From the IMG/VR virus record IMGVR_UViG_3300043772_002424, positions 1-21,898 of that record: a DNA stretch of 21,898 nt. The stretch is one strand, 5' to 3'. Of the stretch, positions 1 through 21,898 are shown piece after piece. The notes under the pieces are model-generated. The model ran no database searches. It saw only the letters and a list, made by a program, of their open reading frames with translations, and had not been told where the DNA came from. This stretch comes from a virus. Positions within the stretch are counted from its first letter, which is position 1, and every line of letters begins with the position of its first letter. Both the position numbers and the translations under genes were made by a program.

Positions 1-1552
1 CATTCTTGGTCTGAACGGCAAACACCTCGTCGTCGGGCATTTCCTCGGACTCAGTCGGGAACTTGGTGTCACCGTTGTCGCGACCGTAGGCGTCAGAACC
101 ATCAGACGTCTTGGGTTTGTTGACACCGTAGTCATCAGCACCGTCGTCGTACTGGTCCATGTTCTCGACCTGGTCGTGACCGTCTTCCTGGCCAGCCCAG
201 CGGCTTTCACCGTTAGCGTCCTTTGAAGACTTAGCGGTCTTCATGCGCTGAGGACCTTCAAACTCCGCGTTTTCTTTTGCAGTGTTCATGCGGTCGCTGT
301 CCTGTTCGCCGGACTTAGCAGTCTTCATGCGGTCAGAGCCGTTGCCGCCACCCGGAGCTTTGCCGACTTTCATGCGGTCAACGTAGCCGTTCTCAGAGGA
401 ACGAGCAGTTTCGTAACGACCGAACTCGTCGCCCTCGGCGTAATCGTCCTCATCATCGTCTTCACCGTGGTCAGCAGAGTGCTTACCTTTGGGGGAGACT
501 TTGCCAATGTTTTTCTTGAAGGCTTCAGGCAGTTCGCCGTGGTCTTCGGACATTTTCTTTTTGATGAAGTCAGGCATCTCTCCGCCTTTATCGGAGTCTT
601 CAGTTTTACCTTTGGCCTTGGCCTTCATTTCCTCGGCTTTTTTCTTAAAGGCGGCAGGCATTTCACCGTGCTTTTCTTCAAACCGTTTTTCGTCAGCTTC
701 TTCGTAGACGTTTTCTACGACCTGCATGACTTGGCCGTGAGCACCGTTGGCGCGCTTACGGCTGATTTTTCCGTCTTCCATAAATGATTCCTCTGGAAAT
801 TGATCTTCGAGGTCAGCCGTCTGCTGAGCGATTTCAGTACCTTCGCGACCTGAGTGTTTGGTGGTTTCTTTGAACTGAGGGGCATCTGGGTTTGCCATTT
901 GTGAAGCATCCGGTTGTTCAACGGACGAAGTGTCCGCAGCTTCACCAGACTTTTCAGTTGTTTGAGAGTCTTGGTTCTCCTGAAGTTCCTTGACAGCCCC
1001 TGACACGTCCTGACGGACAGCATCAAGTTTCTCACGGAGCATCTCCAGAGGGCTCTTCTCCACTATTAGAGTGGGTCCGAGGTTCTCGTCAAAGATGTCC
1101 GAGGGTGAGAGAGAAACGGCAAAGTCAAAGACCCCTTGCTCCTCCGAGAAAGAGAAAGGTTCCAGACCCTTGACTGCCGGAGGGGAAGCCCCCAGCAGAG
1201 CAAGATGGCGAGCGCTCCACTTCCCTTTGTGAGGGTTGATGGTGGACTCGGGTGAGTAGAACGAGATAGACACCTTTCGGTAATGCCCGTTCTTCACCAG
1301 ATCTTTTGCCGCGTCGGTGAACTCAACGTCAGCGTAAAGATTTCCACCTTGCTTGTTGAAACCCTTGATCCACCCGTACGAGGGTAGACTGTCGTTGTCC
1401 CCCGCGTGACCAATCACCAAAGGTGCTTCGTGAATGGAGGGGTCGTAAGTGTCGATGACCTGCTGGAGGTCCTTGTCAGAGAAGTTTCTCTGGACACCTT
1501 GGGCGGAAGTTTGGTCCCCCGCCTTGAAAACGTGAATCCTTTTTGTGAACAC
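1..1552 (-). CDS. Mu gpI-like prohead protease / scaffold protein, 3' partial
   Basis: An open frame runs from a GTG at 1552 past the left edge of the window (517 codons seen, no stop). No in-frame ATG lies near the start. The first ~150 residues resemble the Mu I-protein family of prohead proteases: a conserved His in 'APLVIGH', a candidate nucleophile Ser in 'YRKVSISFY', and the late segment 'HLALLGASPPAVKGL'. These catalytic assignments are inferred. A predicted coiled stretch ('LREKLDAVRQDV') and a long acidic Lys/Glu-rich tail follow, as expected of a scaffold fused to or nested in a protease. Near 242-376 the tail carries four 'RM(K/N)' motifs spaced 13-15 residues apart. The gene follows the portal with a GGGTAAAAC motif between them, fitting a portal-protease-capsid order. 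No Shine-Dalgarno sequence is obvious. The protein may be cleaved during capsid maturation. Confidence 0.8.
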   Translation of the reverse strand, partial: MFTKRIHVFKAGDQTSAQGVQRNFSDKDLQQVIDTYDPSIHEAPLVIGHAGDNDSLPSYGWIKGFNKQGGNLYADVEFTDAAKDLVKNGHYRKVSISFYSPESTINPHKGKWSARHLALLGASPPAVKGLEPFSFSEEQGVFDFAVSLSPSDIFDENLGPTLIVEKSPLEMLREKLDAVRQDVSGAVKELQENQDSQTTEKSGEAADTSSVEQPDASQMANPDAPQFKETTKHSGREGTEIAQQTADLEDQFPEESFMEDGKISRKRANGAHGQVMQVVENVYEEADEKRFEEKHGEMPAAFKKKAEEMKAKAKGKTEDSDKGGEMPDFIKKKMSEDHGELPEAFKKNIGKVSPKGKHSADHGEDDDEDDYAEGDEFGRYETARSSENGYVDRMKVGKAPGGGNGSDRMKTAKSGEQDSDRMNTAKENAEFEGPQRMKTAKSSKDANGESRWAGQEDGHDQVENMDQYDDGADDYGVNKPKTSDGSDAYGRDNGDTKFPTESEEMPDDEVFAVQTKN

Positions 1553-1578
1553 CGTGATATTTAGTGACCCATTAGCTT

Positions 1579-1588
1579 GGTTTTACCC
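1579..1588 (-). promoter_or_regulatory. GGGTAAAAC motif copy 1 (before protease/scaffold gene)
   Basis: The minus strand reads GGGTAAAACC and overlaps the last base of the portal stop codon. It ends 26 nt before the GTG start at 1552. It is one of seven perfect copies of a gene-boundary motif, interpreted as a late promoter or operator. Confidence 0.6.
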
Positions 1589-3084
1589 TACTTCTTCTTA
1601 GACTCAGCAACTGCTTCATCTTCAGTGACTTTCTCTTTCCCGAACGGTTGCTTAGCGGGTTGCTCTTCCTCCTCCTCACCGTCTGGTGCGGTTTCAGACT
1701 CTGACTCCTCGGGTTCCTCACCCTCAGGCACTTCGAAGTCATCGCCGAAGATCGATTTCAAAAGATCTTCATCTGATGCCTCTTCGGTGCTCTCCTCATC
1801 GGAAGGGAGAGTGGGGGCAGGTTCTCCCTCTTCGGGGGTGGGTTGAGCAGGTGTAGATTCGGCATCCTTCTGCTGGAGTTCCACACGGAAGTGACGTTCT
1901 ATCCACTCCTTACGAGGGGTGAAACCAGACTGAATCAGCAGAGCAACGTCGGGCATTGTCAGCGGGGACTCCTCGATGCGGAACTCTCGTGTCAGATAAG
2001 GCGCCGCCACGTCTGTTCCGAAGTTGAGGTCAACGATCCAACGAATGAGAGTCTGGGTCAGTGTCTTCGAGAGCGTCTCAGAAAGTTCGCTCGCACGAAT
2101 GACTCGGACAGTGTTCGCTACTTGAGAAGATGCCCGTGAACCTGCCTCCGCCATTCCTGCCTCGTTCTCACCGCAAAGAACCAGCGCGATCTCTTTGTCA
2201 ATGTAATCAATCAGGTTTTTGAAGACCTCCGGGGACCCGGAAGGGTTGAGAAACTCTAGTTCATACCCTTCGGGCAGAATCATCGCAGTCTCTTGAGAGA
2301 GATTGGAAAGGTGTCCGTAGAGTGTATCCAGTTCTCGAGTGCTTGCGCTGAGCGGTGCTTTAGCAACAGCAGTCGGCGTCGCGTAACGGTCGCCGTAGAG
2401 AACGTAAGATTCAATCGCTCTGCGGCGGAACTTGACGAGAGGATAAAGGATGCGCCCAAGAGCAGCACCATAGGGATCACCCTGGTGGGAAACATAGTAC
2501 CGTGAGACAATAAACTTTCGTTGAGGCAACTCAACACCTTCAAACATGCGATTGAAGGTCAGGCAACGCATCGTGAAACCTTCCTTGGAGTCCTCTTGCT
2601 CTTGGAACACGAAGCGGCGTTGATCGCGCATACGCACGTCAAACGGAATCACTCCTCGTTTGGTTTTCTTCCACATTACCTCTCCGACAGAGAATCCAGT
2701 GATGATGGACTCTGCCATTCCCGTGTAGAGGTCATCAATATTCATTTCCTCTAGGACCTCTGCCACGAAGTCCCTCACCGCCATATCGCCGGGTTTGTCT
2801 GAATACTCCTGAACGAACCACGGTCTGGACGTTACCTCTTGAAGCAACTTCCTGAAACACGCTTGCACCTGCTCGTCGTACAGCAGTCGCTGGTAGACAA
2901 TAAGGGCGCGGTTACCACCCTTCTGAATAAGCAAGTCGTCGTTGGGGCGTACAATCGTATTCCCCTGCCCCGTAAAGGGGGAGGAGGAACCGAACATGTA
3001 AATGCTCGAGAGATTATACGGATCGCTTGTGTATTTTGCGACCTCACCTGAGGGGACTGGTGCCGTCTTGAATCTTTGTGCCAT
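1588..3084 (-). CDS. Portal protein, DUF935 / Mu gp29-like
   Basis: This 498-aa protein matches the Mu gp29 (DUF935) portal family, the dodecameric ring through which DNA enters the procapsid and to which the tail joins. Supporting segments are the N-terminal 'RALIVYQRLLYDEQVQACF', the mid-protein 'SIITGFSVGEVMWKK', and 'GDPYGAALGRILYPLVKFRR' before the family's typical helical core. The last ~85 residues are extremely Glu/Asp-rich and end in a Lys triplet; this acidic tail is not part of the core fold and could contact the scaffold or be cleaved. ATG 3084 has a weak purine stretch (GAGAG) upstream. A GGGTAAAAC motif lies 33 nt before it, so the portal probably has its own late start site, followed by the protease/scaffold gene. 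Family assignment is from recognisable motifs, not a search. Confidence 0.9.
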   Translation of the reverse strand: MAQRFKTAPVPSGEVAKYTSDPYNLSSIYMFGSSSPFTGQGNTIVRPNDDLLIQKGGNRALIVYQRLLYDEQVQACFRKLLQEVTSRPWFVQEYSDKPGDMAVRDFVAEVLEEMNIDDLYTGMAESIITGFSVGEVMWKKTKRGVIPFDVRMRDQRRFVFQEQEDSKEGFTMRCLTFNRMFEGVELPQRKFIVSRYYVSHQGDPYGAALGRILYPLVKFRRRAIESYVLYGDRYATPTAVAKAPLSASTRELDTLYGHLSNLSQETAMILPEGYELEFLNPSGSPEVFKNLIDYIDKEIALVLCGENEAGMAEAGSRASSQVANTVRVIRASELSETLSKTLTQTLIRWIVDLNFGTDVAAPYLTREFRIEESPLTMPDVALLIQSGFTPRKEWIERHFRVELQQKDAESTPAQPTPEEGEPAPTLPSDEESTEEASDEDLLKSIFGDDFEVPEGEEPEESESETAPDGEEEEEQPAKQPFGKEKVTEDEAVAESKKK

Positions 3085-3116
3085 CCAAGTCTCTCGTGAT
3101 TTTCCCGTGTTGTTTA

Positions 3117-3125
3117 GTTTTACCC
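3117..3125 (-). promoter_or_regulatory. GGGTAAAAC motif copy 2 (before portal)
   Basis: Perfect minus-strand GGGTAAAAC, two bases after the baseplate gene's stop codon and 32 nt before the portal ATG. It belongs to the seven-copy boundary motif set. Confidence 0.6.
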
Positions 3126-3127
3126 GG

Positions 3128-3505
3128 TTAGTTCGCCAGGGTGAAAGTCAAAGGTGGTTGAGGAACCCCATTGACTGCGTAGATAATGTTGACGACGAAT
3201 AGACCGTCTTCGCCACCGGTTTTCCAGTCACCTAGGACACTGAGATCGGTCAGACCATCTACGTTTTGGAGTATGCTGTACTGTATCGCTGAGCAGATGA
3301 CACTCGGGTCCAGAATCTCAAGAACATAATCCCCGATTCCGTACTCGGCATGCATGACCCTCTCGTAATATCGAGTCTCGATCACACTTCTAATCTGTTG
3401 AGTCACGAGTTCATAATCGGTGCTCGTCGATAGATTCCCGTTCAACACTGTCAGAGGGTACTTCAACCCGCGTATCGACGGAGACAGAACTTCGGGGGAA
3501 CTCAT
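3128..3505 (-). CDS. Baseplate wedge protein, GPW/gp25 family
   Basis: This 125-aa protein has the layout of the P2 gpW / T4 gp25 family: an N-terminal 'GLKYPLTV' strand, the conserved helix 'ELVTQQIRSVIETRYYERVM', then 'EYGIGDYVLEIL' and a C-terminal beta segment. In contractile tails this protein nucleates sheath assembly at the baseplate and is one of the most conserved components. Length is normal for the family. Its ATG overlaps the stop of the upstream ribbon-helix-helix gene (ATGA), implying coupled translation. Its position near the sheath gene supports the assignment. Confidence 0.88.
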   Translation of the reverse strand: MSSPEVLSPSIRGLKYPLTVLNGNLSTSTDYELVTQQIRSVIETRYYERVMHAEYGIGDYVLEILDPSVICSAIQYSILQNVDGLTDLSVLGDWKTGGEDGLFVVNIIYAVNGVPQPPLTFTLAN

Positions 3506-6800: not shown

Positions 6801-7784
6801 GTTGTTCTCGCAGTGAGCAGCAGCAGCAGCACCCACAAGAGCACGACCGGCAGCGTCAAACTGAGCGTAAGCAGTCGGTGTCACCAGGTAACCCTGGTCT
6901 TGCTGACCATCAAACGCAGTGTTGATGCACTGGGTGTAGTCCTGGGGAACGCGCTCCAGGTAGGTCTGACCGCCAACAATGTTGTTCACGTCGTAGGCGT
7001 TCTGCATGAACACGAAGTTGCTTCCAACTGGGAGCACTTCGGTCACCACGGACACGTTGCCATCGAAAGTTGTCGCGGCAATGGTCACATAGCTGTTCTC
7101 AGAGTTGCCTGAAGGGTCCAGATCGTTCACCATCCCGGTGTCACGAACGTAAACCGAGCTATTCACAGCAGGGTTTGACTCAATGGCGGCTGAAACAGCA
7201 GCTGCGATGGCGGCTGAAATCTTGCGGTTGTTGGCTTCATCGCCAGCAACATAGTTGACAGGGACGGTCACGGGGACGCCCAGCCATTCTCCATCGGCAG
7301 TGTAACCGGTGGAACCGTCGCCGGAAACCAGTTTGAGGCCGTTGATGATCATCTGCACGAACACCTTGTCACCTGCCATCAGGGCAGAGGGAAGGTCTGT
7401 GGTGTTGATCTTGGAGGCGGAAGGGAGGAACTCAATCTCAACGATTTGGTTGGGAGTGCCGACGCGAACAACGCGAAGGTCGCCAACCTGAGCATTCTGG
7501 AAGAACTCGTTGACGCAGTTGTAGCTGAGCAGGGGGATCCGGGTATCGGGAACAGTTGAAGTTCCGATGCGAATCAGTTCCTTGTAGTCGTTGAGAGACG
7601 TGACGGGAACGGGGACATTGAAAGGAAACTGAGTTACGGGGACGCCTTCCTCTGTCTCCACAAGCATGTACACGGTGCTGAAGTCAGCGAGGGCTGCATT
7701 AGCAGCACGACCGGCTTGCTCATTGATATAAACTCCGGGTGCTCCAGGGGTTACTCCTGAAGTCCCGAGGGAAAAAGTTGCCAT
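3804..7784 (-). CDS. Tail sheath protein, very large
   Basis: This 1326-aa contractile tail sheath subunit is about two to three times the usual 400-700 aa. ATG 7784 starts 'MATFSLGTSGVTPGAPGVY', the classic sheath N-terminus with PGVY and a following acidic residue; the frame remains open to TTG 7814 but lacks an upstream ATG. The C-terminal ~250 residues carry the conserved fold: 'GCNAVRTLPGYPQSAVFIWG', 'GRTRVNPDD', 'YQFVNTRVILNVV', and a terminal 'VTPVPTLERIQIDLIRV'. The middle is Gly/Ser/Val/Thr-rich and contains an inserted GxGY-type repeat segment (residues ~830-950, nt ~5000-5300) resembling the protein at 12962-13909. The extra domains probably decorate the outside of the sheath. A strong AGGAGG at 7803-7808 lies 18 nt from the ATG, longer than usual. 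A GGGTAAAAC motif lies 92 nt upstream. Confidence 0.96.
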   Translation of the reverse strand: MATFSLGTSGVTPGAPGVYINEQAGRAANAALADFSTVYMLVETEEGVPVTQFPFNVPVPVTSLNDYKELIRIGTSTVPDTRIPLLSYNCVNEFFQNAQVGDLRVVRVGTPNQIVEIEFLPSASKINTTDLPSALMAGDKVFVQMIINGLKLVSGDGSTGYTADGEWLGVPVTVPVNYVAGDEANNRKISAAIAAAVSAAIESNPAVNSSVYVRDTGMVNDLDPSGNSENSYVTIAATTFDGNVSVVTEVLPVGSNFVFMQNAYDVNNIVGGQTYLERVPQDYTQCINTAFDGQQDQGYLVTPTAYAQFDAAGRALVGAAAAAHCENNNFKWLALADPGPFLVTDVNKYQDYVPHKAASCLLEGLKYLVDNAIYEWVGSDVCYNRLSNQTLLPGVSAEVAVNESANLVSDASQVGLLDAGQYTVTAVATGVDGVFELDSDQYWPVSLPIQKVAVGSVAVGSDFANVDVVGGSTGISLAGTEVYVVAAPYDLSASSEYSLNYIMLATTAADASNLYNQVVLLGGSKNVLTPLVGSVVVPSPTGDTALLSYVDPYWDLPVDINGQTSDLIENVSGSGAGVNTLHLPGTLQDATNQYLLNWYSRTLLSPAAQISNYGGTVVPAGSAQFTVQSHGLRSGMVIYFTQAITVNNSGSVTSLVSATTKLVSRPYWVKAIDANNFALASSLGNYTTSAFLSFPTAGTVSSVPSIFYSRMLGRGLTQISPNELITLPMIRGRKYEFDSNSIWNQALSAAVAPTSVATTDAFTSIWLNNSALTLGQSLITPYGEDISSGTKCGWLPKLNTVIPDPSPAAAVLNAYCTPTVDQFFQPEAYFTPSIDPILLGTYNGVVGSGTVGPATTLVAVGAASSKPAGTYNNVVVSGGSGSGLTATLTVDGTGAVTAAVVNNAGQGYLATDTGLTLPSSFGGNTLNVSGIDNASTGSFAVASGSAYQVALAAAGVAPVGSSGAQLVAEQQYLVGCYFNVTASGVGPGGLAVVAGDRIALVYNGTAYTWAVVAAASAGGDLTTVGQVCYGAQVELTFSPEQVVPSSLWRFDAITSTEIIDRALRGVGFNGVPQAVFIEAGVDNVNRLFDDSQRYFNPFGFIAFYGPWIENGAGQYIPPSLYVTGVALRRYRAEGYQFPPAGVKYQLADAVAAQIPINSAQQNLLNPKGCNAVRTLPGYPQSAVFIWGGRTRVNPDDAQQRLYQFVNTRVILNVVYGSLRSAFDTQIFNVIDGFGIVYNQIISVGNSILNQLYVRGALFGATPSDAFQVICDSRINPPESLENGIVNAKVFVTPVPTLERIQIDLIRVAIGKMQDELDIQGLGNGSV

Positions 7785-7887: not shown

Positions 7888-8262
7888 GTTCTGGTCACCT
7901 GTTATTGCAGCGAAACTGTCAAAAGTCAAACCATTTATGCTCTCTCTGTCCACAACTCCCTGAAGTGTGTAGCGGTTCAGGGCAGCAGTGTACTCTTCTT
8001 CTGTGTCAAACGGGTAAATATCTTGCTCCGGCACGCCGTTTGGCAAACCAAAGATGAAGGACCCCTGTGTCAAACCTCCAGGGGTTCCTCCGCTGTTCTC
8101 GGACGGCGAGATTTGGAGTTGCGCCCCAATCGGAGGCAACTCCGTAACCTTCCATTGCGCGTTCTGACTCAAGACTTCCCTGTAGTTCAGGGAGTCGGTA
8201 AAGTAGAGGTAACCCAACTTTCGCCAGGTATGTTCTTGCTGAAATGGAAGGGAAACAGTCAT
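7882..8262 (-). CDS. LysM-like tail protein (P2 gpX-type), probable
   Basis: This 126-aa protein contains 'WRKLGYLYFTDSLNYREVL', followed by 'SQNAQWKVTELPPIGAQLQI'. This is the LysM pattern: W..L, an alpha helix, an N..W segment, then a Pro-Gly turn and a final strand, as in short tail proteins such as P2 gpX. In phage tails these domains often join tube, baseplate hub or cell-wall contacts. The C-terminal half is acidic and aromatic with no recognised domain. The start codon overlaps the preceding stop (TAATG at 8262), and the sheath gene follows. The LysM call rests on pattern recognition only; a generic baseplate protein is the alternative. Confidence 0.6.
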   Translation of the reverse strand: MTVSLPFQQEHTWRKLGYLYFTDSLNYREVLSQNAQWKVTELPPIGAQLQISPSENSGGTPGGLTQGSFIFGLPNGVPEQDIYPFDTEEEYTAALNRYTLQGVVDRESINGLTFDSFAAITGDQNG

Positions 8263-8585
8263 TAGACTCTCTTCTGAGAACGAGCGATTAAGCGAGCACC
8301 GACTGAGGTGCCCCGATTGAGTTCAAAACCACTCTCCCTAGCAACATCGCCTGCTGCTTTCTCAAGAGAGGCAGGGTTGGAGGGAACGAAAACATCCTGC
8401 TGGTCAGTCTTTCGAACAAGTTTCTCACGAAAGTCAGTCTGAAGTTTCTCGGGTTCTGCGGCAGGGGCAGGAACAGTAGGTTCTTCAGATACGGTTACTT
8501 CTAGAGACACAGGGTCGGAGGGTGCTACCTCCTTGAGTCCGGTCTCTTGAACCTCGGGGTCGGTGGTGCGTTTGTTGCGTGTCAT
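8262..8585 (-). CDS. Hydrophilic protein of unknown function in tail operon
   Basis: The 107-aa reading starts at ATG 8585, which overlaps the stop of the gpG-like gene (ATGA). A longer open frame to 8822 is the antiparallel-frame shadow of that gene and is not used. The product is charged and disordered-looking: Pro/Ala/Glu-rich in the middle ('EEPTVPAPAAEPEKL'), ending in a basic segment 'GARLIARSQKRV'. It has no membrane segment or recognised motif. It is coupled at both ends (ATGA upstream, TAATG downstream), so it is expected to be made with the tail proteins. Function unknown. Confidence 0.7.
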   Translation of the reverse strand: MTRNKRTTDPEVQETGLKEVAPSDPVSLEVTVSEEPTVPAPAAEPEKLQTDFREKLVRKTDQQDVFVPSNPASLEKAAGDVARESGFELNRGTSVGARLIARSQKRV

Positions 8586-8998
8586 TTTGATGGAGTATAG
8601 AAAATGTTTTTCCAAGCAAGAGTCGACAAGTCCTTCATGGAAGTGTCGGGCACGCCCATCCAGGGTCGAGCAACAAGACGAGTCGTGCCAAACTGCTGGT
8701 ACTTTCCGTACCGTGTTGTCAGGACCTCGAGCCCGGTACCCTTGGGAACGATCTTGGCGGAGTCTTGCATTTGCCCCGAGTATCGGAGTATGGGTTGACC
8801 CGGGCGAGACCGGTCCTTCCACTCCTTGTACTTGGGACTGAGTGCTTTCCAGGGTCGCCCGGTCTGCGGGTCTCTCTGCTGAGGCCAGAACTTTTTATTG
8901 GCCTGAAGGAGTTTTGTAGCCCACTGCCTCTGGGTGCTGGGCCACCACCTTTCGTTAACGGGTTGAAACCCTCTGCCTTTGATTTCGAAGCTGATCAT
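8582..8998 (-). CDS. Phage virion morphogenesis / tail completion protein (Mu gpG / P2 gpS-like)
   Basis: This 138-aa protein has the layout of the phage virion morphogenesis family (PF05069-type): 'GRPWKALSPKYKEWK' near the N-terminus, 'PILRYSGQMQDSAKI' with the family's L..tG.l..s pattern, then 'YGKYQQFGTTRL' and 'ARPWMGV' in the C-terminal half. Members finish the tail or help join head and tail in Mu- and P2-type phages. ATG 8998 overlaps the upstream frame's stop (TAATG), and its own stop overlaps the next start. Immediate proximity to the tail chaperones and sheath supports the assignment. Confidence 0.8.
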   Translation of the reverse strand: MISFEIKGRGFQPVNERWWPSTQRQWATKLLQANKKFWPQQRDPQTGRPWKALSPKYKEWKDRSRPGQPILRYSGQMQDSAKIVPKGTGLEVLTTRYGKYQQFGTTRLVARPWMGVPDTSMKDLSTLAWKNIFYTPSK

Positions 8999-9423
8999 TA
9001 CCGTTTCCGTGCAGACTTTTTCGCCTCGCTGTTCTCTCGCTCAACGTGTTTCTGAAGAATGTCAACCATGAGAAAGATTTTGCTCATTGGTTGAGTCTCC
9101 AGCCAGTCCATCGAGGAGTCCCACCTCTGCTTACAAAGGTGAAAGCACAGTTCCATCCAGTTCTCGACCGTCAGCAACTTTTCGTTCAGAAGGTTTTCCA
9201 CAACCCATATGAGCACTTTTCTGAAGTCTCGCCCAGGGAGTTCGTCGAGGACCTCCTCATTTAGAAGAAGTCTCTCAATGAGTCCCATGTGACTCCCGCT
9301 GTTCGTTTGCCTAAGGATTTGAGCAAAGTAAAGGTCTTTGGGAGTCAACTCACGAAAGTGGAAAGGACCGTTCCCGTTGACCGTCACCTCATAAGTGAAG
9401 TCCTCGAGGTCCCTGACTGTTAG
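8998..9423 (-). CDS. Tail assembly chaperone frameshift extension (gpGT-like)
   Basis: This frame has a GTG at 9387, with no recognisable ribosome site. It is open upstream to exactly where a -1 slip at CCCAAAC (9423-9429) would enter it from the tail assembly chaperone. The extension is 141 aa from the CTA codon after the slip; the predicted fusion is 108 + 141 = 249 aa. It is helical with aromatic motifs such as 'FHFRELTPKDLYFAQIL' and 'NWMELCFHLCKQRW', and a basic C-terminus. In lambda and many other tailed phages the chaperone is made in two forms by -1 frameshifting, and the long form recruits the tape-measure protein. Standalone translation from GTG is the alternative. No tape measure gene follows here, which is unusual. 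Confidence 0.8.
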   Translation of the reverse strand, partial: LTVRDLEDFTYEVTVNGNGPFHFRELTPKDLYFAQILRQTNSGSHMGLIERLLLNEEVLDELPGRDFRKVLIWVVENLLNEKLLTVENWMELCFHLCKQRWDSSMDWLETQPMSKIFLMVDILQKHVERENSEAKKSARKR

Positions 9424-9746
9424 TTTGGGTCTTCGTCGTCGGCGCCATTTGCCTTGGTGACCAAGTCACTGAGTTTGCGGAAGTCTTTCACGCCAAGGTC
9501 GAGGATCTCCTCGTAGGTGATTTTATCGTCGCCCACAATCAGTCGCTCGATGATGCGCATCCCTTTTTCCACGTCACCGGCCTTGGTGAGGTCCTTTTCC
9601 ATGTAGATCAGGTCACGACCGGTCATCTCCCGGATCGTGATTTCACGACCGTCGGTCAGAGTGGTGCTGAATGTTTCCAGTTTTGTTTGTGCTTTCTTCA
9701 TTTGTTTGGGTTCGGCGTGTGCCACGTCGTCAGAGATTGTCCTCAT
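9420..9746 (-). CDS. Tail assembly chaperone (Mu gp41-like)
   Basis: This 108-aa protein contains 'LTDGREITIREMTGRDLIY', followed by a helical region and 'ITYEEILDLGVKDFRKLSDL'. That is the layout of Mu gp41-type tail assembly chaperones: a beta hairpin with DG, an acidic helix, then a D-F motif. It would coat the tape-measure protein during tail tube assembly. ATG 9746 lies inside the last codons of the 81-aa gene and 24 nt after a GGGTAAAAC motif; an internal ATG at 9701 is an alternative. Its last sense codons form the slippery heptamer CCCAAAC directly before TAA. The C-terminus is acidic ('GADDEDPN'). Confidence 0.85.
   Translation of the reverse strand: MRTISDDVAHAEPKQMKKAQTKLETFSTTLTDGREITIREMTGRDLIYMEKDLTKAGDVEKGMRIIERLIVGDDKITYEEILDLGVKDFRKLSDLVTKANGADDEDPN
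9423..9429 (-). other. Programmed -1 ribosomal frameshift site, CCCAAAC
   Basis: In the chaperone frame the last sense codons read GAC CCA AAC then TAA. This places the canonical X XXY YYZ heptamer C CCA AAC immediately before the stop. A -1 slip gives CCC AAA CTA and continues open through the next 141 codons. Both slipped pairings keep the first two codon positions. A short inverted repeat (AGTC/GACT) around CCTCGAGG lies just downstream and could act as a stimulatory hairpin. Confidence 0.78.
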
Positions 9747-9975
9747 TGTTTTTCTGTGAGAGGTTAGTTAGTTTTACCCGCAAGGCAAATAGGCGGTTCT
9801 CGAGTTCCATGTCCCCGCAACCCGGAGGTAAGGACAGGTAGATGGCATTCGCTTCCCTCCAACTGAACTCCGCGTCTTGCAACCAGTCGTCTGTTAGGCG
9901 ATCTTCAACGTCATCTAACCAGAAACCGACGCAGATTTTGCGAAAGTCGGGGTCCTCAGGAAGCGGAAATGCCAT
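9730..9975 (-). CDS. Unknown 81-aa protein
   Basis: The acidic N-terminal half is rich in Asp and Trp ('GFWLDDVEDRLTDDWLQDAEF'-like segment), followed by a helical region 'ENRLFALRVKLTNLSQK'. No signal peptide, membrane segment or known motif is visible. The ATG overlaps the stop of the 62-aa gene (TAATG), and its own last 17 nt overlap the chaperone start. A GGGTAAAAC motif (9771-9779) is embedded near its 3' end. It is the junction between polymerase operon and tail genes. Function not recognised. Confidence 0.7.
   Translation of the reverse strand: MAFPLPEDPDFRKICVGFWLDDVEDRLTDDWLQDAEFSWREANAIYLSLPPGCGDMELENRLFALRVKLTNLSQKNNEDNL
9771..9779 (-). promoter_or_regulatory. GGGTAAAAC motif copy 4 (before tail chaperone, inside 81-aa gene)
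   Basis: Perfect minus-strand GGGTAAAAC, 24 nt before the chaperone ATG. It lies inside coding sequence, where it encodes R-V-K-L, so it would be an internal start site letting tail genes be expressed apart from the polymerase. Confidence 0.6.
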
Positions 9976-10163
9976 TAGAGTGCTCGAAGCATGTTAACGG
10001 TTTGTTGAACTGAGAAGTAACGCGAGTTGTAAGCGCACTCCACCGAGGAGGGGATCACTCGGTTCTTCTTGTCGTAGGGTACGGTCATGTAGAAAGTGTC
10101 AATGACACCTTGAAACAGAACCACCCCGACATTCTCGACTCGTGACTTTTTGTTTTTGTTCAT
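9975..10163 (-). CDS. Unknown 62-aa basic protein downstream of polymerase
   Basis: The small product begins 'MNKNKKSRVENVGVVLF' and has a mixed beta-like core with several Tyr and Val residues. There is no recognised domain. Its ATG overlaps the polymerase stop codon (TGATG), so it is translationally coupled to the polymerase and probably made in a fixed ratio to it. A replication accessory role is possible from position only. Its stop overlaps the next gene's start (TAATG). Confidence 0.65.
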   Translation of the reverse strand: MNKNKKSRVENVGVVLFQGVIDTFYMTVPYDKKNRVIPSSVECAYNSRYFSVQQTVNMLRAL

Positions 10164-12928
10164 CAGATGACTCCTTTTTTGATGGCGGAATAGCGGTTTG
10201 TTAGTTTGTCGATGGCACCGATCTCGGCAAGTTCGTACATTGAGTACTCAGTGCCAAACGGTTCCTTCTCGCCACCAGGGTTAGACAAGGTGACCGTCTT
10301 TTCCTTGGGTGATTTGCGAAGGCGATCGTCAATCGCAACCGAGGAGAAGTACGCACGGGACAGAGGAAGTTCCGGGATGTCAACAGCAGAGTGGAACAGC
10401 GACCAGGTGTACATGTGAGCAATCTGGAACAGAACAGCAAACTGCTCTGCGTATCGCTCGGGTGTCATGAACCAGATCTCGTCGTGAATGCTGAGCACGA
10501 ACCTTGAGGGAATCTTGTATTCCTCTGCCAACCAGTGCACAGCAGTGAGCATGATTGACAGAATCTCAGCACCGGAGGACTGAATCGTCCAGTTAACTCG
10601 CCCAGTCTTAAAGTCGTCACCGACAGCAGCAGGACGCATCGCGGTCGAGATCTTGGTCCCAAGGCAAGGCAACTGAGGTACTCGTGACTTCATCGCAATC
10701 TCTTCCATGAAGTTGAAGCACCCGGAGTCAAGACCTGCTTCGTACAGACCGTTTTTCTGGGCGCCCTTCTTCTTCTGGATGAGCATGAAGGCAAGTTTCT
10801 TCGCCTCTTCAGGCGTCTTCTCGGGGTACTTGCGACGAATGTAGTTCTGAACGCCACGGACGCCAGCACCGTAAAGGATGGCGAAACCCACAATCTTGGC
10901 AGTGTCACGGTCCACGCCACAGACCTTTGCAAGGGCACTATGCGGGTCTGTGCCTGCCTCCTTGGACCCGCTGAGCACGTTGTACCCGAAGGGTGAGCAC
11001 CCGACGTGCCCGCCCTCCCACTTGTCGCTGTAGATAGACGCGATTTGCATCTCCTGACCGTCGAAGTCAGCGCCGACGATCTTCCAACCGTCAGGTGCCT
11101 GCACTCGTGACTTGAGTTCAGTGCCGATGCGCCAACTCTTTGTGGAGCACATGGTAACCATGAGCGACTCCACGGTGCGACGGGTAACCGTGCCGTGGCA
11201 GAGAATCTCAGGGAGAGTTACGAGGGAGTCAATACCGTGAGGGTTTGCAACCGGAAGGAAAATGCGGTCCATGACTCGCTTACGGACCGAAGTCCAGTAC
11301 GAGACTGCGTTTGCAATCTCAAGAGCACGTTTCGCCTCGGGCAGTTCGCTATTCAGGCGACCCACTTTCATATCGTCCACGAAGTCCTTGCTGAGGACTC
11401 CGCCGACGTTGTCGCCTGTCCCTTTCGGGTGAGGAATCCGTGTAAGGACTCCCTCCTCGTTGTGGAAGCACCACCCCATGTCTTTGGTGCAAGTCATCGG
11501 GGAACCTTCCCAGGTGAGTTTTAGCAACAGGTGAGACAGGTTGGACTTCACACCGATATGTGTCTCAGGGTCTTTGATGAAGGGGCGCACCCAGTTCGGA
11601 ATGCCAGCGTACTTCCCTTTCTCAGTCGCGACAGTCCAGTCCAGTTGAGTTAACCAGGGGTCCCTCTTCCAGTACGAATCGCTCTTCTCAGTCTTCAACC
11701 ACTCGTCGTAGTAAGTCCAAACCAAGTCCTGACAGAGTTTGGTCATTTCTTTGTTGTGACTCTCAAACGTTTTCTCGACGTTTTGAATCCACTCCTCCCA
11801 GTCAGGCACCAAGGGAATGACCGACCCGTTGAGGTGGTAGTGCCCACAGAGTGCCACGAGCGAGGGGGTGGAGTCTAGGTACTTGGGCCAGAGAGCCTGG
11901 AAGAGTTCTGCAGTGTAGAAGGCGTCCTTGACAGCGTAGTCAACTGCCTCGGTCAGCATCTGACGGATCTGACTCAGGTGCGTTGCCTTGACGAAAATGT
12001 CACGAACTGCCTTGTCTTCCTTGCCGAGCTGGAAGGCGTCATCGCCGAAGAACTTGCGCACCTCGTAGACGTGGAAGTTGTACGCAGCAACCAGCGAGTT
12101 GGTGGACCCTTCGTCCAACCACTTCGGTGCATACCTCAGTTTCCGCTTCTCGTCTTCCGTGAGGTTCTCTGGGTCCTTACCTGCCAGAACGTAAAGCCAA
12201 CGTTGACCGCCAGCAAGACCACTGACGCCGATATGAGCAGATAGGGTGTCAAAGTAGAAGTTCTCCGGTTTGGTGCGGTCAAGAGAGTACCCCTCACGAG
12301 CACGCACACGGTCGTAGGAGATGTTGTGACCAACAACGAAACGGTTCTCACCGATTGGAATCAAGTTGTGTTGGTCCCACTGATCCTCAGGAATCGTTGG
12401 ATCAATCAGTTCCGACGCCAACCAGACGTAGGATGCCTTGGCACTCATTGCAGTACCGATGATTGGAAAGGCGCCCGCGTGAACGAAGGTCTCGGTGTCG
12501 TAGGTGAACGCTTTCTCCAAAGGGTAAGGAACGGACTCAGTCTTCCACTTCCCTCGGGACTTTGTGTACCGGGTCCACCCAGGTTTGAACACGAGGACTT
12601 CTGCCGGAGGCACCTCAGGGAGTTTGCAAGTCGAGAACTCGTCAGCAAGTTCCTTGTACTCGCCGACTTGCGCCCGTGCAATCTCTTCAAAGTGAGTCTT
12701 CAGAGTCTCACCCTTGAGTTCGGGGAGAGGCAGCGGACCGTCGTAGAGGTGGTCGGGGTAATCAACGGGAGTCGGGATGTCAAACTCAGACAGCAGGTCC
12801 TCTGCTTTCTGCTTCGCCAGACGACGCATCTCTGGCGGTTTCTGCTTACCAAAAATCCTCGAGTGAGTTTCTTCACTGAGGACCGGATATCCGAGTGGCG
12901 TTTTGCGCATGGACGTTGTGTTTTTCAT
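10163..12928 (-). CDS. Family A DNA polymerase, full-length mitochondrial pol-gamma homologue
   Basis: This 921-aa replicative polymerase with proofreading is colinear with animal POLG, not Pol I or T7 types. The exonuclease is near residues 138-345: Exo I D144/E146 ('TYDTETF'), Exo II D206 ('VVGHNISYDR'), Exo III Y331/D335. The polymerase domain has motif A D621/E626 ('GADFDGQEMQIAS'), motif B R674, K678, F682, Y686 ('RDTAKIVGFAILYGAG'), and motif C D816/E817 ('LSIHDEIWF'). POLG-specific matches include 'PGWTRY', 'CSPFGYNVL', 'RVNWTIQSS', 'DIPELPLSRAYFSSVAIDDRLRK' (first 20 residues decisive) and the SNP near the end. It is shorter than human POLG (1239 aa) because the spacer insertions and mitochondrial leader are missing. 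A TTTACT-15-TATACT promoter lies so close that transcripts from ATG 12928 would be leaderless; ATG 12910 is an alternative start. It heads an operon with two small coupled genes. Confidence 0.97.
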   Translation of the reverse strand: MKNTTSMRKTPLGYPVLSEETHSRIFGKQKPPEMRRLAKQKAEDLLSEFDIPTPVDYPDHLYDGPLPLPELKGETLKTHFEEIARAQVGEYKELADEFSTCKLPEVPPAEVLVFKPGWTRYTKSRGKWKTESVPYPLEKAFTYDTETFVHAGAFPIIGTAMSAKASYVWLASELIDPTIPEDQWDQHNLIPIGENRFVVGHNISYDRVRAREGYSLDRTKPENFYFDTLSAHIGVSGLAGGQRWLYVLAGKDPENLTEDEKRKLRYAPKWLDEGSTNSLVAAYNFHVYEVRKFFGDDAFQLGKEDKAVRDIFVKATHLSQIRQMLTEAVDYAVKDAFYTAELFQALWPKYLDSTPSLVALCGHYHLNGSVIPLVPDWEEWIQNVEKTFESHNKEMTKLCQDLVWTYYDEWLKTEKSDSYWKRDPWLTQLDWTVATEKGKYAGIPNWVRPFIKDPETHIGVKSNLSHLLLKLTWEGSPMTCTKDMGWCFHNEEGVLTRIPHPKGTGDNVGGVLSKDFVDDMKVGRLNSELPEAKRALEIANAVSYWTSVRKRVMDRIFLPVANPHGIDSLVTLPEILCHGTVTRRTVESLMVTMCSTKSWRIGTELKSRVQAPDGWKIVGADFDGQEMQIASIYSDKWEGGHVGCSPFGYNVLSGSKEAGTDPHSALAKVCGVDRDTAKIVGFAILYGAGVRGVQNYIRRKYPEKTPEEAKKLAFMLIQKKKGAQKNGLYEAGLDSGCFNFMEEIAMKSRVPQLPCLGTKISTAMRPAAVGDDFKTGRVNWTIQSSGAEILSIMLTAVHWLAEEYKIPSRFVLSIHDEIWFMTPERYAEQFAVLFQIAHMYTWSLFHSAVDIPELPLSRAYFSSVAIDDRLRKSPKEKTVTLSNPGGEKEPFGTEYSMYELAEIGAIDKLTNRYSAIKKGVI

Positions 12929-19367: not shown

Positions 19368-19394
19368 ATTCTAGGGATTGGTTCTCAAGGTAAA
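19368..19394 (-). promoter_or_regulatory. Candidate promoter (TTTACC-N15-TAGAAT) after the terminator
   Basis: The minus strand carries TTTACC (19389-19394), a 15-bp spacer and TAGAAT (19368-19373). The upstream hexamer begins within the trailing bases of the terminator hairpin. Expected transcripts would have about a 90-nt leader before ATG 19267. Confidence 0.5.
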
Positions 19395-19429
19395 CCCCCT
19401 CTGGGCACCACGCCGTGCCTTCAGGGGGT
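19394..19429 (-). terminator. Two-part hairpin terminator after the TET/kinase operon
   Basis: Outer arms ACCCCCT (19394-19400) and AGGGGGT (19423-19429) enclose an inner stem GGCAC (19404-19408) / GTGCC (19415-19419) with a 6-nt loop. On the minus strand it follows the 48-aa gene's stop by two bases and is followed by only TTTA. It may act as a terminator or as a 3' end protecting structure. Confidence 0.6.
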
Positions 19430-19431
19430 GA

Positions 19432-19578
19432 TTACACCCCTCCTGACAGCTGACGCTCAAGTTCCACTTTCACTTGAATTAAATGGGCCTTCAGGTGAGA
19501 CTCCCAACGATTTCCTTCCACCTTTTTAAGCAAGGCAGCCACTGAAGAAATCATTTCTTTCAGCTCGTTCTCAGACAT
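19432..19578 (-). CDS. Small 48-aa helical protein coupled to the kinase gene
   Basis: ATG 19578 opens a 48-aa frame that overlaps the last 8 nt of the kinase gene and ends TAA at 19432, just before the hairpin terminator. The product is helical and amphipathic ('ELKEMISSVAALLKKVEG', 'HLKAHLIQVKVELERQL'). The overlap and position as last gene of an operon argue that it is real. A role linked to the dioxygenase-kinase pair is possible only from position. Confidence 0.6.
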   Translation of the reverse strand: MSENELKEMISSVAALLKKVEGNRWESHLKAHLIQVKVELERQLSGGV

Positions 19579-20086
19579 GACTAAGCAGCGAAAACCCTTG
19601 CTCAACACAGGTCACAGGATAGTTCTCCCTGAGTTTTCTCATTCGTGTTGCCATTCCTTTTCGCCAAGCAGGGTTCTGGTTGCTTCTGTCGGCGTTTCTC
19701 TGGTTGAGCAGCTCGGAGTCTGCGTTCAGGGAGTAAATGGTAACATCGTTGCAGACGGACCCAGGTTGAAAGAAAAAGTCGAAAAACTTGCTGTTTGAGA
19801 ATCTCTCTCCTTCGAAGTAAAAGACCCAGTCCTTGAAAGTAACGTCAGCGCATTTCCGTGCCAACCACTCGCGGTACTGCGGACCGCACCCTTTCGAAGT
19901 ACGATCTGTTCCCGAAAACACTGCCTCGTCGTAGATTCCGGCAATGTACACCTTGTCCTGAGGAAAGACGGTGTAACAAACCAGACTCTCCTTCTGCACC
20001 CTCCCCTCGCCAAGAGTCTCGATAAGACCCCGCATCACCGTACTCTTTCCAGAGGCAGGTTCACCAATCAACCCAATAATCTTCAT
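19571..20086 (-). CDS. P-loop nucleotide/base kinase
   Basis: This 171-aa protein starts with Walker A 'GEPASGKST' (residues 8-16). 'YIAGIYDE' and 'GTDRTSKG' follow mid-protein, then 'VFYFEGERFSN', giving the layout of small phage deoxynucleotide-type P-loop kinases with a lid rich in Arg near 'NQNPAWRKGMATRMRKLREN'. The substrate cannot be read directly. Either a dNMP is phosphorylated for replication, or a modified base in DNA, as the 5-hydroxymethyluracil DNA kinases of hypermodifying phages do. The ATG overlaps the dioxygenase stop by ATGA, so the two are translated together, which favours the base-modification reading. Length is close to that of short phage kinases. Confidence 0.8.
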   Translation of the reverse strand: MKIIGLIGEPASGKSTVMRGLIETLGEGRVQKESLVCYTVFPQDKVYIAGIYDEAVFSGTDRTSKGCGPQYREWLARKCADVTFKDWVFYFEGERFSNSKFFDFFFQPGSVCNDVTIYSLNADSELLNQRNADRSNQNPAWRKGMATRMRKLRENYPVTCVEQGFSLLSHV

Positions 20087-21519
20087 GACTTTGCTCCAGC
20101 AGTTTCTGCCTCAAGTAACATAAGAATTTCCTCGTCTGGTAAATGCCCTGTGCAGTAGTAGTTCGTGTTGGAGCAACGCTCCATTCCCCGCGACTGCTTG
20201 TAAAGAACCCACTCGGGCGACTGCCACATCCCGCTCCAGGAACCAGTCCATTTCGGTTCGCCAGTTCCCTTGTGCTGATTGTGAATGACATTGTGATCCA
20301 TGAAGTCCTTCCGACATTGCTCACAGTCCAGGTCGTCGAGTCGGGTCACAGAATCTCTTTGGTACGCAACAAACATAATGTTCTCAGCGTCCGGGGTCTG
20401 CTCACTGAAAGGAAGCATCCCATGGATCAAAGATTGATTGTCGCCAACGAACACGTCCCCGGCACGAATGTCGAAACCGATTCCAAGTTCAGGGAACACA
20501 AACTCGCCACCCTTCCAGTCACCAATCTCCATGACACACAACGCAGCAGTGCCACCCTCTGCGTTATTGCCATCGCGATGGTACGCAACGTCAAAGTTGT
20601 TATTCACGGTCAGTGTCGTGAACACGGTGCCAAACAAGTTGTATCTCTCGTCCTTCACCTCAGAGAACCTCGCGTTCAGAAACTCAAACTTCTCAGGGAG
20701 CAACTCCTTGAACATTCCGCTGAGTTCCCGGTAGAAATCCTTGTGGGCAACCCAATCCTCCCAGCGCTTGACAGTCGAAGCAGTCAGCCGACCAAAGGGC
20801 AACCGACCCGAGCGGTCAATCGTTCCCATCACATTGCTGTAACACATGTTGCTGCGAGGTTGAATCGTAACGTACTTCTTCTTCCCTGCCTTTGCCACAG
20901 CAGGGCGCTCCGATTCAGGTGCCGATAACCAGGACTCTTCGAACCACTTCATGAACCACGCAAGTTTCGCCTTGTTACGATTGGCAGTCGCCTCCGCTTT
21001 CTCCTCCGCAGAAACATTCCTCTTTCGGCAGATACTGTCCCAACGCTCCACCTCCTCCAGATCTACCAGCCCGTCTGTTTCCGCTTTCTTCACATAGTAC
21101 GTGTTTCGACTTGGTTTCTCATTTGAGCGAATAACTGCGAGCGCCTCCGAGGCATCTACCAGCGGGTTCTTTGCGCGTGTCGCCAGAGAGAAGAACTCCC
21201 ATTGCCCGATAGTCAGGCGAATCTCAGGGTTCGTAACGATGTCCTTCCCTGCTGCATACCCCCGCTGGTCGGTCTTGAGCGCCTTGCTCACCCAGCGCCA
21301 GTACGCCAGCGCCTCGGGCGTCAGGGTCCCCCCTTGCTCCACAGGCAAGGTACTCTTGAGGGCACCCACCCGAAACGCGATCGCCTTCTCACCGCTCGGG
21401 AGAAAGACATCCACGTCCTCGTGGTAGATTACATCAATGTCCCCGGCCTTGGGCCAGGAACCTAACCAGTCTTTGTCAGGGCACTCTCTCAGTGCCTTCA
21501 GGTGGATTTGTTTGACCAT
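20083..21519 (-). CDS. TET/JBP-family 2-oxoglutarate/Fe(II) dioxygenase with C-terminal Cys-rich module
   Basis: The 478-aa reading starts at ATG 21519, because a GGGTAAAAC motif overlaps the possible upstream start at 21555. The catalytic domain covers residues ~290-385: 'FGTVFTTLTVNNNFDVAYH', iron ligands H314 and D316 ('HRDGNN'), 'WKGGEFVFPELGIGFDIR', 'AGDVFV' and distal H366 ('LIHGMLPF'). This matches phage TET/JBP enzymes that hydroxylate 5-methylcytosine or thymine in DNA. The usual 2OG-binding Arg after the distal His ('RxS') aligns with N380 ('NIMFVAYQR'), a notable difference. A compact CxxC...HxxxH segment (C399, C402) and a second Cys pair (C449, C456) with 'SPEWVLYKQSRGMERC' lie C-terminal and may bind zinc and DNA. 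The ~220-residue N-terminal region is charged and unrecognised. It is followed by the overlapping kinase gene. Confidence 0.82.
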   Translation of the reverse strand: MVKQIHLKALRECPDKDWLGSWPKAGDIDVIYHEDVDVFLPSGEKAIAFRVGALKSTLPVEQGGTLTPEALAYWRWVSKALKTDQRGYAAGKDIVTNPEIRLTIGQWEFFSLATRAKNPLVDASEALAVIRSNEKPSRNTYYVKKAETDGLVDLEEVERWDSICRKRNVSAEEKAEATANRNKAKLAWFMKWFEESWLSAPESERPAVAKAGKKKYVTIQPRSNMCYSNVMGTIDRSGRLPFGRLTASTVKRWEDWVAHKDFYRELSGMFKELLPEKFEFLNARFSEVKDERYNLFGTVFTTLTVNNNFDVAYHRDGNNAEGGTAALCVMEIGDWKGGEFVFPELGIGFDIRAGDVFVGDNQSLIHGMLPFSEQTPDAENIMFVAYQRDSVTRLDDLDCEQCRKDFMDHNVIHNQHKGTGEPKWTGSWSGMWQSPEWVLYKQSRGMERCSNTNYYCTGHLPDEEILMLLEAETAGAKS

Positions 21520-21541
21520 GGGTCCCCATGCTACTCGGTGA

Positions 21542-21550
21542 GTTTTACCC
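21542..21550 (-). promoter_or_regulatory. GGGTAAAAC motif copy 7 (before dioxygenase)
   Basis: Perfect minus-strand GGGTAAAAC, 22 nt before ATG 21519. It abuts a TATGCT hexamer (21551-21556), which itself sits 16 bp after TTGACG (21573-21578), so here the motif lies just downstream of a sigma70-like promoter and could be an operator. Confidence 0.6.
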
Positions 21551-21578
21551 AGCATAGCAAAGAGACCCTGGGCGTCAA
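21551..21578 (-). promoter_or_regulatory. Candidate sigma70-like promoter of dioxygenase operon
   Basis: The minus strand carries TTGACG (21573-21578), a 16-bp spacer and TATGCT (21551-21556), close to the bacterial consensus. It would start transcription near 21544, within the GGGTAAAAC motif. Confidence 0.45.
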
Positions 21579-21581
21579 CCC

Positions 21582-21755
21582 TCAGCCACCATCAAACTCA
21601 AACCATTCATAGATCGCAGACATGACGCAATCCTCGATTGAGGACATGATGGCTTCCTCAGTCGGGTTCTCAACGTACTTGAATGCTCTTCGGTAACCTC
21701 GTGCGACCCCTTGCTCAATGGCAAGTTCCAACACCTCTCGTGCTTTCGGTTTCAT
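21582..21755 (-). CDS. Small conserved phage protein of unknown function, 57 aa
   Basis: ATG 21755 has GGGGTG immediately upstream and overlaps the previous stop (ATGA). An upstream in-frame ATG at 21809 is rejected because it would run through the preceding gene. The product 'MKPKAREVLELAIEQGVARG' continues with 'YRRAFKYVENPTEEAIMSS' and an acidic aromatic tail 'YEWFEFDGG'. I recognise the G...YR(R)A.K...NPTEEA pattern as common among small uncharacterised phage proteins, but its role is not known to me. Confidence 0.7.
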   Translation of the reverse strand: MKPKAREVLELAIEQGVARGYRRAFKYVENPTEEAIMSSIEDCVMSAIYEWFEFDGG

Positions 21756-21898
21756 TTCACCCCGTTGAAACGTTGAAGAAAGTCGCGGCACGTTTTGAAC
21801 GTGACCCATTGCTCGTCAGTAAAGTCGTCAGAAGCGTAAGGCACACCCACGAGGGAGGCACAGACTCTGTTTGGATTGACTGTAATCATCTCCGCCTT
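21752..21898 (-). CDS. Small protein of unknown function, possibly 5' partial
   Basis: A frame open from the right edge ends TGA at 21752 and overlaps the next gene's ATG. An internal ATG at 21889 follows GGCGGAG with no spacing, so the true start may lie outside the window. The visible product includes 'MITVNPNRVCASLVGVPYAS' and 'FKTCRDFLQRFNGVK'. It has no recognised domain. Coupling to the 57-aa gene suggests one operon. Confidence 0.55.
   Translation of the reverse strand, partial: KAEMITVNPNRVCASLVGVPYASDDFTDEQWVTFKTCRDFLQRFNGVK

Follow-up and report, generated by a model that had tools for sequence, protein, structure and literature searches.

Results

Gene arrangement at the locus

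The window, by which we mean the whole stretch of virus DNA that was analyzed (a 21.9-kb fragment of 21,898 nt), carries on its minus strand three ORFs of 490, 171, and 48 amino acids that form one run (Table 1). All three genes of the original prediction are present, and Pfam identifies the first two as a TET/JBP-family oxygenase and a P-loop kinase. The stop-start overlap between these two is read directly in the sequence, and the kinase start overlaps a HAD or glycosyltransferase gene in the same manner in three related loci (L002, L003, and L004). The upstream edge of the window lies only 343 nt beyond the TET gene.

Table 1. Features of the cassette and its surroundings in the window
Feature	Position	Strand	Basis
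TET/JBP-family Fe(II) oxygenase (predicted)	20083..21555	-	490-aa ORF, Tet_JBP PF12851 match, AlphaFold
P-loop kinase (Ploopntkinase3; PHROG_800), distantly homologous to 5-hmdU DNA kinases	19571..20086	-	171 aa, Pfam, PHROG, hhalign, BFVD
ATGA stop-start overlap, TET/kinase	20083..20086	-	sequence
48-aa ORF, unconserved, status uncertain	19432..19578	-	ORF list; start overlaps kinase stop by 8 nt
Hairpin 3' of 48-aa ORF, terminator-like without U-run	19378..19440	-	RNA fold, -27.3 kcal/mol
Promoter-like TTGACG-16-TATGCT	21551..21578	-	sequence scan
75-aa ORF upstream of TET	21582..21809	-	homologue in L003
Mitochondrial-gamma-like DNA polymerase (context, outside cassette)	10163..12928	-	Pfam, comparison with S-CBWM1

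The oxygenase probably starts at Met13 (codon at about 21519–21517) rather than at the first codon of the ORF, since several homologues begin with MVxxI and residues 1–10 are disordered in the structure model. The Met13 codon is preceded by GGGGA, and the promoter-like element would be suitably placed for this start, such sites occurring in near chance number. Farther upstream, the 75-aa ORF recurs ahead of the TET cassette in L003, with 62% identity over 55 residues.

At the other end of the run, the 48-aa ORF has no homologue among the loci compared and no Pfam match at an E value of 0.01, leaving its proposed role as an accessory factor unsupported. A PHROG match (0.036) and a Tet_JBP match (0.22) of this ORF were both at chance level and were rejected. 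A terminator had also been proposed here. The hairpin does exist, but it shows a mild excess of stability over shuffled sequences (z of -1.73, with 11 of 200 shuffles folding equally well), it lacks a U-run, and the terminator scan did not list it; a role as terminator is plausible.

The oxygenase lacks the conserved 2OG-binding arginine

The window TET matches the Pfam family Tet_JBP (PF12851) with 61 bits, against a curated cut-off of 34.9 (E = 1.1e-16). Each of the signature motifs from which the enzyme had been recognized (HxD plus NN, GG...P, AGD, and HG) was located in the protein, as HRDGNN at residues 326–331, GGEFVFPE, AGD, and H378-G. The aligned homologues conserve H326, D328, and H378, the predicted iron ligands, and the alignments place N331, Y398, and R400 at base-contact positions. 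NCBIfam called neither the TET nor the kinase of the window above cut-off, and in searches of viral contigs a single-sequence scan found no close homologue of the TET, whereas alignment-based scans succeeded.

The AlphaFold model of the protein, built from 19 aligned sequences, has a pLDDT of 88.9. Its VIA-align Z scores are 20.2 with TET2, 19.3 with CMD1, 18.2 with NgTET1, and 16.9 with CcTet; AlkB relatives, at a Z of about 14, score clearly below these TET-type matches. Model and alignment agree on a double-stranded beta-helix that carries an HxD...H iron site.

In HsTET2 and NgTET1, Arg1896 and Arg289, respectively, bind the C5-carboxylate of 2OG, and this arginine has been termed strictly conserved (PMC7854593). 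TET2 Arg1896 aligns without gaps to Asn392 of the window protein (TRISLVFY in TET2 versus ENIMFVAY), so that the C5-carboxylate arginine of canonical 2OG-dependent TET enzymes is missing. Position 392 is Asn or Ser throughout the sub-clade to which the window TET belongs (L002, L003, L004, L006, L009, L021, L059, L063, L064, L067, L068, L070, L073, and near copies). The remaining phage TETs in the alignment have Arg there, and the S-CBWM1 TET retains this arginine. Lys or Arg at positions 127 and 197, found in the same sub-clade, could compensate for the lost arginine. Because that residue is absent, ordinary 2OG chemistry of the window TET is uncertain, and we class the protein as a TET/JBP homologue rather than as a proven 2OG enzyme. 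Of the Fe/2OG dioxygenase originally predicted, the iron site therefore stands, but the 2OG site departs from the norm across the whole sub-clade.

A partial parallel is CMD1, an algal TET homologue that uses vitamin C (PMC7854593). It resembles the window TET in fold, shares the arginine that is R400 in the window protein, and likewise departs from normal 2OG binding. It differs in having Asp350 at the position of window Asn331 and in retaining the aligned arginine, Arg410, which points away, whereas the window clade has no Arg there.

The kinase is related to 5-hmdU DNA kinases

The 171-aa protein matches Ploopntkinase3 (PF18751) with 33.7 bits, against a curated cut-off of 27 (E = 3.3e-8), and contains an intact Walker A motif, GEPASGKS, at residues 8–15. 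It falls into PHROG_800 (E = 1.9e-13), a family labeled terminase small subunit, to which gp54 of phage M6 also belongs; M6 gp54 matches the Pfam family HMUDK_HMUD1. Comparison of a profile of 13 kinases with M6 gp54 in hhalign gave a probability of 94.6% (E = 7e-8, 127 columns), and the window kinase and M6 gp54 both have the Walker A motif, a G-x-Y...G-x-D stretch, and an EG motif. The structure model of the kinase has a pLDDT of 89.4, and its BFVD matches include proteins of SP10 and PhiW-14 named 5-hmdU DNA kinase; its fold matches in the PDB are adenylate/guanylate kinases and other small-molecule kinases. Unlike M6 gp54, the window kinase gave no match to HMUDK_HMUD1 (PF18748) itself, for which reason we regard it, from sequence and model, as a relative of the 5-hmdU DNA kinases and not as a proven member. 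A PADLOC search returned nothing but the Walker A match of the kinase.

The label of PHROG_800, whose members include M6 gp54, Cr30 gp114, and Nigel gp3, looks wrong, since one member at least, M6 gp54, is recognized by the model for 5-hmdU DNA kinases. The kinase domain also occurs at the C-terminus of a 433-aa ORF at 7275–8573 of L088, a 79-kb record in which TET and ADDT were not found by family search.

Kinase neighborhoods

Scans of viral contigs yielded 55 kinase loci, which form 36 clusters at 90% identity. Counting neighbors within 8 kb, we found an ADDT (amino-acid:DNA transferase) gene in 33 of the 36 clusters and a TET gene in 29. The relatives' ADDT belongs to the Pfam family that M6 gp51 matches. 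A hypermodification module of TET, kinase, and ADDT is well supported by this co-occurrence. The three clusters without ADDT comprise L066, which starts inside the cassette, with an inositol-phosphate synthase present and the upstream part cut off; L082, where the kinase lies 706 bases from an end of the stretch examined, although the 28-kb record has no ADDT either; and L083 with its cluster mate L088, the former having its kinase at the contig end and the latter lacking both ADDT and TET.

ADDT was not found in the 21.9-kb window with the family model in six frames, the window edge lying just upstream of TET. The cassettes closest to that of the window run in the order TET, ADDT, inositol-3-phosphate synthase, HAD, a glycosyltransferase or another ORF, and kinase; L002 additionally encodes an inositol-2-dehydrogenase-like protein, below the model cut-off. 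Both window proteins have their nearest relatives in such full cassettes, the TET in L002 (63%, partial) and the kinase in L005 (74%) and L002 (72%).

Several other arrangements were seen. L008 has an inositol-phosphate synthase, a HAD protein, and, as judged by eye, glycosyltransferase-like and GalE-like genes (1–3471), which other ORFs, spanning about 4.6 kb, separate from the kinase (8084–8593). Eight loci (L013, L014, L019, L020, L022, L024, L025, and L028) carry a tandem second TET paralogue that retains HxD...H and the 2OG arginine. In Stenotrophomonas phage Moby (L047), an inositol-3-phosphate synthase at 8982–10232, about 60% identical to those of the TET cassettes, adjoins GTP cyclohydrolase, QueC, QueE, and Tgt-like genes, apparently a set for 7-deazaguanine modification, so that more than one kind of base modification may draw on inositol.

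Module exchange among related phages

The original prediction had taken cyanophage S-TIM5 as comparator, but the window polymerase shares 58% identity with its counterpart in Synechococcus phage S-CBWM1 and 38% with the one in S-TIM5, and the TET search, which matched S-CBWM1, DLP6, Cr30, C48C1, and HTVC112P, gave no match in S-TIM5, a phage with a C5-methyltransferase (PF00145). By sequence, S-CBWM1 is the closest isolate to the window phage, and most window genes with detectable S-CBWM1 homologues keep their order within two blocks. The TET homologues of S-CBWM1 (HOU61_gp009), Cr30 (gp129), and DLP6 (AAY80_030) are annotated as SNF2 DNA repair proteins, and S-CBWM1 HOU61_gp011, annotated as phosphoheptose isomerase, looks HAD-like.

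Collinearity with the window extends over the portal, sheath, polymerase, and topoisomerase genes of a 41.6-kb contig (G005, locus L007), whose homologous genes are about 36–81% identical, most above 60%, with 80–81% for the polymerase. Where the window has TET and kinase only, this contig has TET, ADDT, inositol-phosphate synthase, HAD, an ORF, and kinase. At the same place, another collinear contig (G007, locus L009) carries TET, a TAGT glycosyltransferase, HAD, a nucleotidyltransferase, and APH; S-CBWM1 also has TET, glycosyltransferase, HAD, nucleotidyltransferase, and APH, but elsewhere relative to the polymerase. Mapped on the TET tree, cassette type shows no clustering beyond that of shuffles, with at least four changes for each type, so that modules have been exchanged. 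Most simply, the window represents an unusual, reduced form of the cassette, although an ADDT could possibly lie upstream of the window edge or elsewhere in the genome.

The modified base

The original prediction left the target as a methylated or a thymine base and pointed to cytosine methyltransferase and thymidylate-synthase homologues as genes to look for. The C5-cytosine methyltransferase family PF00145 was not found in the records of the window group, in a scan that took in the complete genomes of S-CBWM1, Cr30, and DLP6 and contigs of 118–277 kb and that gave matches in the control genomes. Three distant contigs with TET, kinase, and ADDT did contain it. The thymidylate-synthase family PF00303 was absent from 14 of 15 records and present only in Cr30. 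S-CBWM1 encodes an ordinary ThyX, a dUTPase, and a dCMP deaminase and has no annotated methyltransferase. The lack of PF00145 in the window group favors thymine and a JBP-like first step, which makes thymine somewhat more likely than 5-methylcytosine as the substrate in this lineage; possible sources of 5-methylcytosine would be methylation by the host or a divergent, unrecognized methyltransferase.

The binding pocket does not decide between the two bases, because N331 of the window TET corresponds to Asn1387 of TET2, an enzyme acting on 5-methylcytosine, at the N4/O4 contact. N331 occurs in the group without methyltransferase and D331 in groups of which some have one, a correlation that is suggestive only as an indicator of the base. 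In CMD1, an Asp-to-Asn change gave no activity on T (PMC7854593).

Discussion

Pfam and PHROG assignments, kinship to M6 gp54, fold, and the co-occurrence of ADDT and TET all support the proposed DNA hypermodification cassette, and we think it likely that the TET-kinase pair is the visible core of such a cassette, acting after replication. From the observed gene order, homology, co-occurrence, and collinearity, we infer the following reactions. The TET/JBP enzyme, judging by its fold and iron ligands, would act on a pyrimidine of the phage DNA and oxidize its 5-methyl group to hydroxymethyl. The kinase, as a homologue of 5-hmdU DNA kinases, would then phosphorylate the hydroxymethyl group. In the relatives, ADDT would replace the phosphate by a nucleophile, as its homology to M6 gp51 suggests, and in some of them this nucleophile is probably inositol-derived. 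In the window, genes for this third step are not found between TET and kinase; they may lie beyond the edge or elsewhere, or the phosphorylated base may be the end product.

The same cassette could instead act on 5-methylcytosine, the reported substrate of other phage TETs, and yield phosphorylated or substituted 5hmC, a reading that differs in the base only and overlaps the one just given. The close solved structures (TET2, CMD1, NgTET1, and CcTet) are all of enzymes acting on 5-methylcytosine, the N331 equivalence with TET2 fits this base, and so does the methyltransferase in the three distant TET-kinase-ADDT contigs. The window phage group, one complete genome included, nevertheless has no PF00145 match, and the kinase and ADDT homologues with known function belong to thymidine pathways; 5-methylcytosine is a genuine but not the favored possibility.

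That an ordinary dNMP or adenylate-type kinase, or a part of the terminase, neighbors TET here by chance seems to us very unlikely. The PHROG_800 label, the position of Nigel gp3 of the same family next to a terminase gene, and the small-molecule kinases among the PDB fold matches would suit this explanation, but ADDT is nearby in nearly all kinase clusters, M6 gp54 carries the same label and yet matches the HMUDK model, and the Walker A, G-x-Y...G-x-D, and EG motifs are common to M6 gp54. Somewhat less improbable, though still unlikely, is that the pair is the non-functional remnant of a cassette that has lost its ADDT and accessory genes. That ADDT is missing here but present in a collinear relative, and that the 2OG arginine is lost, would agree with decay; against it, both ORFs are intact, and neither the iron triad nor Walker A nor the family-invariant residues have been lost. 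The arginine loss, moreover, is common to a whole sub-clade with intact cassettes and so is not decay in the window phage. At the far end of our main reading, that of a base hypermodification cassette, lies a combined proposal: the window TET sub-clade abandoned the standard 2OG site for another co-substrate, much as CMD1 employs vitamin C, a phosphorylated hydroxymethyl-pyrimidine is final here, and the same step in collinear relatives yields a base derived from inositol. We regard the conjunction of all three as a long shot.

In phages M6, PhiW-14, SP10, and ViI, a 5-hmdU DNA kinase together with aGPT-PPlase/ADDT enzymes converts the hydroxymethyl group to a phosphate and then to a substituted base. 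The window kinase shares its PHROG with M6 gp54, and the relatives' ADDT shares its Pfam family with M6 gp51. In the M6-type pathway, however, a dUMP hydroxymethylase acts before replication, whereas the TET-like oxygenase of the window would act in DNA; the window kinase also belongs to another Pfam family, and no ADDT is visible in the window. Phage TET hypermodification of 5-methylcytosine was reportedly described by Burke et al. in 2021, who are said to have shown in part that TET products feed further enzymes. The order of TET and then decorating enzymes is similar there, and S-CBWM1-type relatives combine TET with a TET-associated glycosyltransferase, but the window group has no C5-methyltransferase match, and kinase and ADDT replace or alternate with glycosyltransferases. 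Iyer et al. 2013 are said to have predicted hydroxymethyl pyrimidines made by TET/JBP enzymes as starting points for further enzymes; to our knowledge, that work does not contain the module with inositol-phosphate synthase, the exchange of modules at a single locus, the TET-kinase pair stripped of other genes, or the lost 2OG arginine. PMC8670742 cites Iyer et al. 2013 for the clustering of modification genes.

Within 9 kb, the isolate Caulobacter phage Cr30 encodes TET, ADDT, a TAGT-like protein, inositol-phosphate synthase, a HAD-like protein, and a kinase of PHROG_800. It differs in being a T4-like phage whose TET is about 25% identical and retains the 2OG arginine; its TET is annotated as SNF2 and its kinase as terminase small subunit. 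Synechococcus phage S-B43 has a 5-carboxymethylcytosine system in which the carboxymethyl group is a handle for amide bonds, so that DNA hypermodification as such is already known in a cyanophage; the text describing it mentions neither TET nor kinase (PMC12783734).

That TET products feed further enzymes is thus already published, as is cyanophage hypermodification by another route (PMC12783734). What is new, as far as can be told, is the reduction to TET and kinase, the inositol module, the exchange of modules at a single locus, and a TET sub-clade without the 2OG arginine; in the literature searched, no paper was found linking inositol to the modification of hydroxymethyl bases in phages.

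The cassette joins two chemistries that have been treated separately, the oxidation of bases in DNA by TET/JBP enzymes and the kinase/transferase route of thymidine-hypermodified phages, and the isolates Cr30 and S-CBWM1 make it testable. It suggests that a DNA base derived from inositol may exist and points to a group of TET enzymes with an altered co-substrate site. The locus keeps TET while close relatives swap the decorating enzymes, as would be expected if host restriction exerts pressure on the final base.
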